A DNA stretch of 64,000 bases from Pseudorhodoferax soli. Its GTDB lineage: Bacteria; Pseudomonadota; Gammaproteobacteria; Burkholderiales; Burkholderiaceae_C. A model generated the notes under the pieces. The model was not told the DNA's origin and did not search any database. It was given only the letters and a program-made list of their open reading frames with translations. The DNA lies in NCBI RefSeq assembly GCF_003337555.1, contig NZ_QPJK01000004.1, positions 62,001 to 126,000 on the forward strand, given 5' to 3'. Below, piece by piece: positions 7,746 through 11,367 of this stretch (position 1 is its first letter; each line of letters starts with the position of its first letter). Both the position numbers and the translations under genes were made by a program.

Positions 7746-8303
7746 TCAGCGGCCGCTGGAATCGCCCGGCCGCACCGCCTCGAACAGGAACCAGGTGCGC
7801 CGCTCGGTCTCGTCGATCCAGTTCTCGATCAGGCTCGCGGTGGCGATGTCCTGGCTCTCGTTGCACACGGCATGCGCGGCACGCAGGCGGGCGGCCAGCG
7901 TCTTGTTGTCCTCGCACAGCTCGGCCAGCATGTCGGAGGGCTCGACGAAGTCGGCGTCGTTGTCCAGGATGCGCTGGTTGCGTGCGATGTGGCCGATGGA
8001 GAGCAGCGTGGTGCCGCCCACCTTGCGCACGCGCTCGGCGATGGGGTCGGTCATGGCGAAGATCTGGTCGGACTGCTCGTCCAGCATCACGTGGTAGTCG
8101 CGGAAGTGCGGGCCGCTCATGTGCCAGTGGAAGTTCTTGGTCTTGAGGTACAGCGCGAACACATCGGCCAGCACGCCGTTCATGGCCGCGGCGATGTCGC
8201 GCGTGGCGGCGCCCTGCAGGTCGGTGGGGGTGCGCAGCACGGCGCCCTGGCGGGGCTTGGCGGCGCTGGCTTCGGCGGTCTGGGGGCGGGTGAGCGTGGT
8301 CAT
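7746..8303 (-). CDS. dps: Dps-family DNA-protection ferritin (185 aa)
   Basis: A mini-ferritin that stores iron, detoxifies peroxide by ferrous oxidation and compacts DNA in starved cells. The ferroxidase ligands are visible in [16 protein letters not shown] and in the following MLDEQSDQ segment. It has a 25-30 residue basic, flexible N-terminal tail rich in Lys, Arg, Thr and Ala, of the kind that binds DNA. The start is preceded by AGGAAG. It is on the same strand as poxB, 100 bases upstream of it, and divergent from the DUF3072 gene. The 289-base gap upstream (8304-8592) carries a LexA-type box facing the other gene; no OxyR or sigma-S element is clear on the dps side. Confidence 0.92.
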
Positions 8304-8560
8304 GGTGCACTTCCTGGTTGGGGTTGAAAACTTCCTGTCGCGCAGTGACTGTCCGTTCCGGGCGTTGCCTGGGCGTTGCAGGCGCTGGCATAGGGCAATA
8401 CGGGTGAAGCGGCGAAGGTTTCAGATGCAACGCGAGGGGCGTGAGGGCGTACCACGGCCGGCTTGGCGCCCGGTGCATGGCCCCACGTGTGCAGCCGCCG
8501 GCATGCCGCTGGCCTGCGCGAGCGACATCGGCCTACACAGGCTGGGCCGCGCACAACTTA

Positions 8561-8576
8561 CTGTGTATAAATACAG
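8561..8576 (+). promoter_or_regulatory. LexA (SOS) box overlapping the promoter of the DUF3072 gene
   Basis: CTGTGTATAAATACAG fits the CTGT-N8-ACAG LexA consensus exactly. It keeps the AT-rich alternating centre and the preceding TA of the classical TACTGT...ACAG operator. It contains the only -10-like sequence in the area (TATAAAT, 8566-8572) and ends 16 bases before the start codon, so a bound repressor would block the promoter. The surrounding region is GC-rich, which makes a chance match unlikely. Confidence 0.75.
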
Positions 8577-8592
8577 ACCCAAGGAGTTAGCG

Positions 8593-8844
8593 ATGACCGA
8601 CAAGCAGACACAGGCCATGGCCGAAGACAGCAACATGGAGAAGGATCCGTCGACCTGGGTGACGGGCGACGAAGCCATGACGGGCGCGCAGCGTTCGTAC
8701 CTGAAGACGCTCAGCGAGGAGGCGAAGGAGCCGTTCGACGAATCGCTCACCAAAGCGCAGGCGTCGGTCCGCATCGACGAACTGCAGCAGCTCACCGGGC
8801 GCGCGCCGCCGGACCACCGGCCAGCGACCGACCGCAAGGAATAG
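8593..8844 (+). CDS. DUF3072-domain protein of unknown function (83 aa)
   Basis: A small, charged, soluble protein with no signal peptide or membrane segment. The core from about residue 33, MTGAQRSYLKTLSEEA, through LTKAQASVRIDELQ matches the DUF3072 family, whose function is unknown; the two predicted helices resemble small nucleic-acid-associated folds but this is not established. A perfect AAGGAG at 8581-8586 with six-base spacing fixes the ATG at 8593. The gene sits alone behind a LexA-type operator, which suggests DNA-damage induction. It ends 30 bases from the convergent histidine kinase with a strong hairpin between them. Confidence 0.85.
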   Translation: MTDKQTQAMAEDSNMEKDPSTWVTGDEAMTGAQRSYLKTLSEEAKEPFDESLTKAQASVRIDELQQLTGRAPPDHRPATDRKE

Positions 8845-8850
8845 GCGCTG

Positions 8851-8876
8851 GAGCCGGGGTACTGAACCCCGCGCTC
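8851..8876. terminator. Bidirectional hairpin terminator between convergent genes
   Basis: GAGC-CGGGGT, loop actga, ACCCCG-c-GCTC form a ten-pair stem with a single bulged base. It lies between the DUF3072 stop and the stop of the convergent kinase gene, which it slightly overlaps, so it can act for both. Confidence 0.6.
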
Positions 8877-11367
8877 AGCGGCCCTCCAATGCCCTCGCCA
8901 GGCCCTCGGCCAGGTCCCGCCCGGCCAGCGGCTTGTGCAGCACTGCGCGCACCCCGCCTGCCAGCGCCTGCTGCTCCGTGGCGGCGCCCAGGTTGCCGCT
9001 GACCAGCAGCACCGGCAAGCCGGGCCGCAGCGCCAGCAGGCGCTCCGCCAGGGCGTCGCCCTGCAGCCCGGGCAGCGCCAGGTCGGTGACGACCGCGTCG
9101 AAGCGCTGGGGCGCCGCTTCGAAAGCAGCCAGCGCAGCCTCTGCCGTGGGGTAGCCCACCGGCTCGTAGCCCAGGCCGGCCAGCAGTTCCTCGGCCAGTT
9201 CGAGCAGCGCGCGCTCGTCGTCGACGACCATGATGGTCTGGCCGGCACCGGCCGGCCAGTCGGCCTGGCCCGCCGGCATGGGTGCCTCGGTCTCGCCGCA
9301 CACGGGCAGCCACACGCTCACCAACGTGCCGTGCGGCGCGCGGCCACACACATCGATGGCGCCGCCCAGGTCGGAGACGATGCCGTGCACCACCGACAGG
9401 CCCAGCCCCGTGCCCTCGCCCACCTTCTTGGTGGTGAAGAAGGGGTCGAACATGCGCGCCAGCACCTCGGGCGCAATGCCGGGACCGGTGTCGCCCACGG
9501 CCAGGCACAGGTGGGGGCCGGGCTGCAGCTGCCCGTGCAGCAGGGCGCGGCCTTCTGCCAGTTCCACACGCGTGAGGCTGAGTTCCACCGTGCCCGCATC
9601 CCCCATGGCCTGCACCGCGTTCGTGCACAGGTTCATCGCCACCTGGTAGAGCTGCGTCGGGTCGCCGATGACCGCCGAGCTGCCGGACGTGAGCTGCGTC
9701 TGCACGTGGAACGTGGCGGGCAGTGACGGCGACAGCATGGCCACCACCTCCTCCACCACGCACTGCAGGTTCACCGGCACGCGCTCTGCGACGCCGTTGC
9801 GGCTGAAGTCGAGGATGCGGCGCACCAGCAGCCGCGCGCGCGCACCCGACTGCATCACCTGGTCGACGTGGCGGCGGATGGCCGAGCCGGCTTCGGCGCG
9901 CTGCTGGGCCATCTCGCCGAAGCCGAGGATGGCGCCCAGGATGTTGTTGAAGTCGTGCGCGATGCCGCCGGCCAGGGTGCCCAGCGCCTCCAGCTTCTGC
10001 GTCTGCTGCAGCCGCGCGTCGAGCCGGGTGCGCTCTTCGGCCGCGCGGCGGCGTTCGCTGATGTCGATGGCCGAGCTGAACACGCGCACGGGCTGGCCCG
10101 CACCGTCGAGCACGCGGCGCCCGCGCGCATGGATCCAGCGCCAGCTGCCGTCCTGGGCCTGCACGCGGTAGTCCATCTCGATGGCGGGGGTGCGGCCTTC
10201 CAGGTGGTCGCGGATGCCCTGGCGCACGGCCTCGGCGTCTTCGGGGTGCACGGCCACGTGGCGCACCAGCGCGTCGGCGTGGGCCAGGCGCACCGATGGG
10301 TCGACGCCGTGCAGCGCGGCCCAGCGCTCGGACGGGAACACGGCGCCATCGGCCAGGTGCCATTCGATGTGCCCCTCGCTGGCCGCCTCCATCACCATGG
10401 CGTAGCGTTCTTCGCTGGCGCGCAGGGCCGCCTCGCCGCGTTCGAGCCGGCGCATCTGGCGCAGCAGCCCGGCGATGGTCGCCAGCACCAGCAGCGACAG
10501 CAGCACGGTGCGCACCACCGCGCTGCGCATCTCGTCGACCCAGGGCAGCAGGGCCTGTTCCTCGTCGCGCGTGATGGCCAGCACCAGGGGCTGCTGGCCC
10601 ACGCCCACCGACGCCACCAGCTTGGTGCGCCCGTCCACGGGGCTGGTGCTGCGGTCGATGAGCTCGCCGCCCTTCAGCGCCACCAGCTCGGGGTACTTGA
10701 CGCGGCCTTCCAGCGCGGCGGCCGGTGGCTGGCGCGCCACCAGCGTGCCATCGGCCAGTGTCAGCACGAGCGAGCTGCGTTCGCCCAGGTCGAGCGCGGT
10801 GTAGGCCGTCTGCAACTGCTGCAGCGTGACGATGGCGGTGACCACGCCGTCGAAGCCGCCGTCCGGGCCATCCAGCCGGCGCGACAGCACCAGCGCCGGG
10901 ATGCGCTCGGTGCGGGTGACGATGGGCTCGTTGATGAACAGGCCCTCCTGCGCCTGCTCGCGCTGGCGCTGGAAGTACGGCCGGTCGGCCACGTTGGCCA
11001 TGGGCTCGCCGGTCTCGCGCGAGCGCGCCAGCTGCTGGCCGTCGGCACCGACGATGCTCAGCACGCTGACCTGCGCCACGCCGGCCGCGCGCGTGGCAAG
11101 GCCGTTGGCGATGGCCGCGGGGCGGCGTGGCGCGTCGGCGCCCTCGTACCAGTCGGCCGTCTCGCGCAGCAGCACGTCCACCGCCTCCAGGCTGCGCGCC
11201 GCTTCGGCGCCCAATGCCTTCGCCAGGTTGCCCAGCTCGCGTTCGTTGGCCGCGGTGATCTGCTGGTGCAAACGCCAGCCGTCGTAGGTGGCCGAGCCGA
11301 CGAAGGCCAGGATCAGGGCCGCGCCGAGGACGATGGTGCGCAGGCGCAGGGCGTCGCGGCGGTGCAT
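8875..11367 (-). CDS. Hybrid sensor histidine kinase with Cache, PAS and receiver domains (830 aa)
   Basis: A membrane-bound two-component sensor. It has a transmembrane segment at about 10-30, then a periplasmic double-Cache-like ligand domain at about 40-280 (motif RPYFQRQREQ near residue 130). A second transmembrane segment is at about 282-303. A PAS/PAC domain follows at about 315-440, then the dimerisation domain with phospho-acceptor His471 in GGIAHDFNN, an ATPase domain with GDTGPGIAPE and GTGLGLSVVHG, and a C-terminal receiver at about 712-828 (VVDDE, phospho-Asp in VVTDLALPG). The ligand is unknown. The short receiver gene 11401-11763 lies directly upstream on the same strand and an OmpR-type regulator is divergent from that gene, so the three may form one relay. 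Confidence 0.9.
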   Translation of the reverse strand: MHRRDALRLRTIVLGAALILAFVGSATYDGWRLHQQITAANERELGNLAKALGAEAARSLEAVDVLLRETADWYEGADAPRRPAAIANGLATRAAGVAQVSVLSIVGADGQQLARSRETGEPMANVADRPYFQRQREQAQEGLFINEPIVTRTERIPALVLSRRLDGPDGGFDGVVTAIVTLQQLQTAYTALDLGERSSLVLTLADGTLVARQPPAAALEGRVKYPELVALKGGELIDRSTSPVDGRTKLVASVGVGQQPLVLAITRDEEQALLPWVDEMRSAVVRTVLLSLLVLATIAGLLRQMRRLERGEAALRASEERYAMVMEAASEGHIEWHLADGAVFPSERWAALHGVDPSVRLAHADALVRHVAVHPEDAEAVRQGIRDHLEGRTPAIEMDYRVQAQDGSWRWIHARGRRVLDGAGQPVRVFSSAIDISERRRAAEERTRLDARLQQTQKLEALGTLAGGIAHDFNNILGAILGFGEMAQQRAEAGSAIRRHVDQVMQSGARARLLVRRILDFSRNGVAERVPVNLQCVVEEVVAMLSPSLPATFHVQTQLTSGSSAVIGDPTQLYQVAMNLCTNAVQAMGDAGTVELSLTRVELAEGRALLHGQLQPGPHLCLAVGDTGPGIAPEVLARMFDPFFTTKKVGEGTGLGLSVVHGIVSDLGGAIDVCGRAPHGTLVSVWLPVCGETEAPMPAGQADWPAGAGQTIMVVDDERALLELAEELLAGLGYEPVGYPTAEAALAAFEAAPQRFDAVVTDLALPGLQGDALAERLLALRPGLPVLLVSGNLGAATEQQALAGGVRAVLHKPLAGRDLAEGLARALEGR

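Follow-up and report, generated by a model that had tools for sequence, protein, structure and literature searches.

The LexA motif takes the form CTGT-N8-ACAG in betaproteobacteria and GTTC-N7-GTTC in alphaproteobacteria (PMC3323433), the alphaproteobacterial form being given in a second source as well (PMC12700426). SOS regulons differ between bacterial groups, as set out in section 7 of an article that examined Variovorax paradoxus, and the members of the LexA regulon described there carry class-type operators shortly upstream of the start codon, an arrangement that is also found at the DUF3072 gene analyzed here (PMC3323433). The betaproteobacterial genes hypA and hypB of that article have homologues confined to betaproteobacterial species with multiple chromosomes, or to Burkholderia only, unlike DUF3072 (PMC3323433). 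Section 8 argues for splB across two LexA motifs, and the argument made below for DUF3072 has the same form (PMC3323433). DUF3072 is not named in the portions of that article concerned, sections 7 and 8 among them. A search of 5.39 million open-access papers for "DUF3072" or "PF11272" found none, and within that literature the family is without a described function.

The DUF3072 gene and its putative operator

The gene occupies positions 8593–8844 of the forward strand in the 64-kb window (the whole stretch of DNA analyzed), with an ATG at 8593 and a stop codon at 8842–8844. As the sequence-only reading had stated, it encodes an 83-residue DUF3072 protein, which matches PF11272 over the full length of the profile (positions 1–56 of 56; 103.5 bits, cut-off 27.5; E 5.2e-30). 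DUF3072 is present as a single copy in the genome, and an alignment of 23 family sequences contains 28 invariant columns. A ribosome-binding site, AAGGAG, lies at 8581–8586 on the same strand, and 16 bases separate the ATG from the palindrome CTGTGTATAAATACAG at 8561–8576, a putative LexA operator that has no strand of its own; both this spacing and the claim that the box keeps every defined base of CTGT-N8-ACAG (eight of eight) were borne out, and no second exact match occurs elsewhere in the window. Upstream, the divergent dps-like ferritin gene (7746–8303, reverse strand) lies outside the unit, at a distance of 289 bases from DUF3072; its product scores above the Pfam Ferritin cut-off (4.1e-26), and its best NCBIfam model is Dps, below cut-off (79.1 against 114 bits).

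Taken alone, the window box is not significant, because shuffled windows contain 0.63 exact matches on average. That CTGTGTATAAATACAG is a chance match without function draws its case from this frequency, since at least one exact match occurs in 52 of 100 shuffled windows and 33 occur in the 8.16-Mb genome (30 contigs). Among the 32 genomic matches outside the window, 20 fall within a predicted frame and 25 have at most four A or T among the eight center bases. Yet the box ranks third of the 33 exact sites (24.8 bits) under a scoring matrix trained solely on 13 lexA-promoter boxes of the window's order, the genome's own two included, and exact boxes stand before 15 of 26 betaproteobacterial homologues against 0.03 expected, so that chance is an extremely improbable explanation. 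The same matrix gives the genome's own lexA boxes 21.9 and 20.3 bits, the imuA box 21.7 bits and a degenerate recA site 13.8 bits. LexA and ImuA were identified in this genome by NCBIfam equivalog models, and one LexA and one full-length RecA match are present. The DUF3072 gene thus has an operator of the host's LexA type directly upstream, as do members of the LexA regulon.

LexA motifs and other promoter elements at DUF3072 homologues

Betaproteobacterial homologues were collected as 39 named loci, together with matches in 13 of 299 genomes of the window's family and 5 of 399 of its order; these sets overlap in part, and the window's own genome is counted in both tallies. Records labeled Variovorax boronicumulans and Pseudorhodoferax contain the closest named relatives of the protein, and DUF3072 is also found in three other genomes of the window's genus. 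The sequence-only reading had proposed a search for the box at orthologous upstream regions, and it is present there: the 15 exact sites lie within 100 bases upstream, where dinucleotide shuffles predict 0.03 and the flank density 0.07, and under the lexA matrix 21 of the 26 loci have a site equaled by at most 1 of 300 shuffles. Thirteen of the 15 exact boxes lie at -29 to -45, the others at -95 (L016) and -79 (L089). Not all of these loci are independent, as three belong to the window's genus and four to a Xenophilus-like cluster. The alphaproteobacterial motif GTTC-N7-GTTC occurs upstream of DUF3072 in none of the 26.

The remaining betaproteobacterial loci show several departures. The lexA-matrix site of L026 is equaled by 4 of 300 shuffles, no box is found either exactly or by matrix at L020 (of the window's genus), L031, L033 and L034, a single box arm is kept at L091, and L009 and L050 have one CCAG half each. 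Four Azohydromonas-type loci (L021, L022, L032 and L011) have CTGG-N8-CCA[G/T] in place of the box. In these loci both arms are altered together (CTGG…CCAG or CCAT), with a sigma54-like element adjoining. CTGG halves are also common in the lexA boxes of the window's family. Start codons were set by hand for L016, L017, L019, L020, L022, L028, L031, L034, L053 and most plasmid loci; L046, where no start was found, was left out of the counts, and L045 (a metagenome-assembled genome labeled Ferruginibacter) and L055 (only 16 upstream bases), neither of which showed a motif, enter no count. A further observation concerns L034, from a metagenome-assembled genome labeled Polaromonas, in which two DUF3072 units are joined in one reading frame from position 2812 onward.

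The Burkholderia/Caballeronia group differs from these loci. None of its 12 loci has an exact box, which makes LexA control of DUF3072 lineage-specific within the Burkholderiales, and under the lexA matrix 1 of 11 (L056) has a weak site of 8.8 bits, equaled by no shuffle; L090, nearly identical to L039, is counted among the 12 of the exact test, and the matrix test comprises 11. L017, whose protein starts MTDK and which is from the window's family, was placed in this group, and moving it would bring the betaproteobacterial count to 15 of 27. At lexA itself, a genome of this group (L145) carries two perfect boxes.

Alphaproteobacterial loci were taken from 24 plasmid records (of 74 with a match in one search and 78 in another) and from Loktanella, which left 20 usable loci after the exclusion of L112 and L115, where no start was found. 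An exact GTTC-N7-GTTC on either strand lies upstream of DUF3072 in 15 of these 20 against 0.15 expected, and the betaproteobacterial motif CTGT-N8-ACAG in none. The motifs had already been noticed in the first beta- and alphaproteobacterial loci before they were counted, and because the alphaproteobacterial motif had first been seen in the same 20 loci, a fresh sample was drawn, which is the only fresh test. It comprised 398 genomes of the phylum, of which 27 had a PF11272 match, three of them seen before; genomes were labeled alphaproteobacterial from their differing class and their lexA promoters. In this sample the exact alphaproteobacterial motif lies within 100 bases upstream in 13 of 18 new full-length loci (a raw count). 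L122 and L124, which belong to the window's class in the taxonomy used but to another order, are among the 18 and have neither motif; together with L123, whose start is doubtful, they stand inside the 18 and outside the 35-locus alphaproteobacterial set. The sample also contained divergent short relatives of DUF3072 (L134–L142, all from family f88 except L137, which is from another), eight of nine of which have the exact alphaproteobacterial motif (a raw count), and in three genomes a long and a short form occur together.

Across the 35 alphaproteobacterial loci the LexA motif is found in 28, and in 23 once the EcfG-like GGAAC is masked, since the GAAC half-site can coincide with an EcfG-like -35 element, as in the three Paracoccus loci. 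A LexA operator is thus kept at homologues beyond chance (15/26, 15/20 and 13/18), as it is in the LexA regulon. The lexA promoters of the sampled genomes bear out the class assignment of the motifs: exact alphaproteobacterial motifs occur in 14 of 14 genomes of the other class, and in the window's order a site matching CTGT-N8-ACAG at seven or more of its eight bases occurs at 10 of 15 lexA-profile loci. The five misses are three Azohydromonas-type genomes, whose lexA loci have no site of at least seven of eight within the 220 bases scanned, together with G435 and G671, the best match of the latter probably not being LexA. The DUF3072 operator thus follows the LexA specificity of its host. 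In actinobacteria, the gram-positive motif GAAC-N4-GTTC was found at none of seven DUF3072 loci and was set aside for these copies, several of which show an element containing GGGTA.

Other promoter elements also recur. CCTACA, which we take to be a possible sigmaS-type -10 element, is found at -70 to -50 in 8 of the 26 betaproteobacterial loci against 0.09 expected. In six of the eight it precedes the start of the box by 29–32 bases; of the other two, L016 has its box upstream of CCTACA and L034 has no box. The window's own copy lies at 8532–8537 on the forward strand. Eleven of the 12 loci of the Burkholderia/Caballeronia group have a GG-N10-GC element, presumably sigma54-like, as do 6 of the 26 betaproteobacterial loci and none of the 35 alphaproteobacterial loci (raw counts); in the group, the upstream regions of L035, L037–L044, L056 and L090 have this element in place of the LexA box. 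In alphaproteobacteria, the sigma factor EcfG (PMC3892343) has the promoter consensus GGAAC-N16/17-BGTT (PMC7083833). An element of this type precedes DUF3072 in 28 of 35 alphaproteobacterial loci against 0.12 expected, as in the EcfG general stress regulon, and is accompanied by the LexA motif in 22 of 35; unlike that alphaproteobacterial regulon, the betaproteobacterial DUF3072 loci show other elements.

Such elements could mean that the palindrome belongs to another regulator or to the promoter and resembles a LexA box by coincidence, with DUF3072 a general stress gene outside the SOS response, a reading to which the frequent EcfG-like, GG-N10-GC and CCTACA elements lend weight. The palindrome itself, however, behaves otherwise: it switches together with the class-specific LexA motif and matches the sampled lexA promoters, and the EcfG-like element and the LexA motif stand in differing positions relative to each other. 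The arms of the 15 exact betaproteobacterial boxes are fixed by definition, while their flanks and most center positions vary (the exceptions being a central T and the A before CTGT), and since a -10 hexamer would sit in that center, the conserved feature is not such a hexamer. This reading is therefore improbable. From its upstream sequences, DUF3072 appears to be a stress gene whose regulators change from lineage to lineage, LexA being used in two classes.

The DUF3072 gene at 8593–8844 very probably belongs, on these comparisons, to the LexA (SOS) regulon, because the box recurs at homologues, swaps with the class and outranks lexA's own boxes; as a LexA site is present in classes with differing LexA specificity, the gene appears to be damage-induced. 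The SOS-protein reading proposed from the window alone thus gains support from sequence comparison in both beta- and alphaproteobacterial loci. In an undamaged cell, a LexA dimer on 8561–8576 would block transcription. The promoter concerned could be of two kinds. The box had been said to overlap the only -10-like element, and TATAAA (8566–8571, forward strand) does lie inside it but is not conserved in relatives, the box center being variable; LexA on the box would cover a -10 element at this position. CCTACA is a second candidate that recurs in relatives, and from a promoter using it LexA would act as a roadblock just downstream. A sigma70 scan of 8300–8900 returned no promoter. On DNA damage, activated RecA would lead to self-cleavage of LexA, and the small DUF3072 protein would then be made. 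DUF3072 would in this way join splB and a small SOS core in which LexA control is kept across a change of the LexA motif, and a strongly conserved protein would gain a concrete context, DNA damage, in which its function is directly testable.

Gene neighborhood and predicted fold of DUF3072

The operator recurs in differing neighborhoods. Among the neighbor clusters listed for 94 loci (at most 40, each in at least 5 of the 94, labeled by eye), no family exceeds 11 of 94 besides DUF3072 itself (76 of 94) and overlapping frames, and a conserved operon was set aside on this ground. Listed clusters that cross genera include a kinase/response-regulator cluster (11 loci), a GGDEF-like cluster (8 loci) and a membrane-protein-like cluster (5 loci), the last common to Azohydromonas and Ramlibacter-type loci; these look like broad regulator families or, in the last case, one small membrane protein. 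The dps-like gene had been named as the neighbor of DUF3072, which holds in the window but appears incidental, as a Dps query against 104 DUF3072 loci matched the window's own copy alone, and a partnership with dps was set aside; these 104 loci include duplicates and loci with flanks of 1.5–3 kb or cut by contig ends. PF11272 is patchily distributed in proteobacteria and actinobacteria, and large plasmids carry it too, with matches in 74 plasmid records. A phage origin was set aside, as 50,697 phage records yielded no homologue at E ≤ 0.1 and no DUF3072 relative is encoded in the 83 stretches of viral contigs that matched a pattern, and so was a role as a defense gene, with no PADLOC match at E ≤ 1.

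AlphaFold2 models predict a conserved core of two helices at about residues 28–68 (positions 8674–8796, forward strand; block-mean pLDDT 83–95), the helices spanning residues 31–43 and 54–68 and the tails being of low confidence; mean pLDDT is 70.8 for the whole protein and 85.0 for the core alone. DUF3072 is thus predicted to form a helical hairpin with disordered tails. A sequence search of the PDB returned no match at E ≤ 10. In a Foldseek search of the PDB with the first model, the C-terminal domain of Red-beta took ranks 1–3 (probabilities 0.91, 0.89 and 0.89), and with a second, overlapping model it took ranks 2–3 (0.69 and 0.57; TM 0.62 by query) behind an unrelated protein with a probability of 0.06. 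The match is not significant, because its E-values are 1.0–2.4. According to PMC8303780, lambda exonuclease and SSB are both bound by the Red-beta C-terminal domain, whose fold resembles that of lambda Orf. The likeness to this domain and to lambda Orf consists in the predicted packing of two helices, with an LT-x-A-x-A motif in the second helix common to DUF3072 and Red-beta; unlike Red-beta, DUF3072 is free-standing and has neither the middle helix nor an annealase domain.

These resemblances suggest, tentatively, that DUF3072 might be an SOS-induced adaptor resembling the Red-beta C-terminal domain, which would bind the SSB tail or a recombination enzyme and bring its partner to single-stranded DNA. 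The domain is the highest-probability PDB match for two overlapping family models, it binds lambda exonuclease and SSB itself (PMC8303780), and it has the LT-x-A-x-A helix in common with DUF3072. Genes with a repair theme also adjoin DUF3072 at one Sphingobium locus (a DNA ligase, Xth and LigD), and a DNA ligase gene is near the Rhodococcus copy, again at a single locus. Against this, small helical hairpins match easily, as the E-values reflect, and the middle helix of the Red-beta domain has no counterpart in DUF3072. Among viral models, none of the best 50 of 137 matches reaches E ≤ 0.001, and the top match is an uncharacterized Lactobacillus phage protein (probability 0.99, E 0.14), with an ERF protein among the matches listed (probability 0.69). 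A profile alignment by hhalign covers 16 residues, and 19 of 400 random protein segments, like 4 of 100 shuffles, score as high, which leaves a sequence link to the Red-beta domain unconfirmed, and one regular expression for LTxAxA found the motif at none of 18 sampled RecT/ERF loci. The adaptor reading is the best guess at the role of the protein but rather unlikely, and a role in SSB binding or recombination can be taken as a lead only. A wider form of it, in which DUF3072 would be a widespread, hitherto unrecognized SOS effector, a free-standing version of the domain by which phage annealases dock onto the SSB tail or a recombinase, repeatedly recruited into host damage and stress circuits (LexA of two specificities, EcfG-like and sigma54-like) and steering repair at SSB-coated DNA, is speculative and unlikely. 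Alternatively, DUF3072 may have another role within the SOS response, modulating RecA, a polymerase or division.

Other LexA-type sites in the same genome

Further LexA-type sites of the genome stand beside other genes. At L072, imuB beside imuA is unsupported, as the second frame there has no Pfam or NCBIfam match. A perfect LexA-type box at G000:C13:18532-18547 (L081) precedes a second imuA-like stretch, recognized by eye, in which a RecA profile match is interrupted by two TAG stops; judged from its sequence, an SOS mutagenesis gene appears to have decayed here in an additional copy. The joint highest exact site under the lexA matrix (26.2 bits) is CTGTTTTTAAATACAG at G000:C4:527496-527511 (L066, position 1501), which is followed after 72 bases by an open frame of 192 residues. 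The frame includes a hydrophobic stretch, matches nothing in Pfam or NCBIfam, and is a candidate for a second uncharacterized SOS gene. Finally, CTGTAGTTATGCACAG at L068 (G000:C5:322631) adjoins a gene for a 2OG-Fe(II) oxygenase (PF13532), which we take to be of the AlkB type and which could plausibly be a DNA-repair member of the same LexA regulon.
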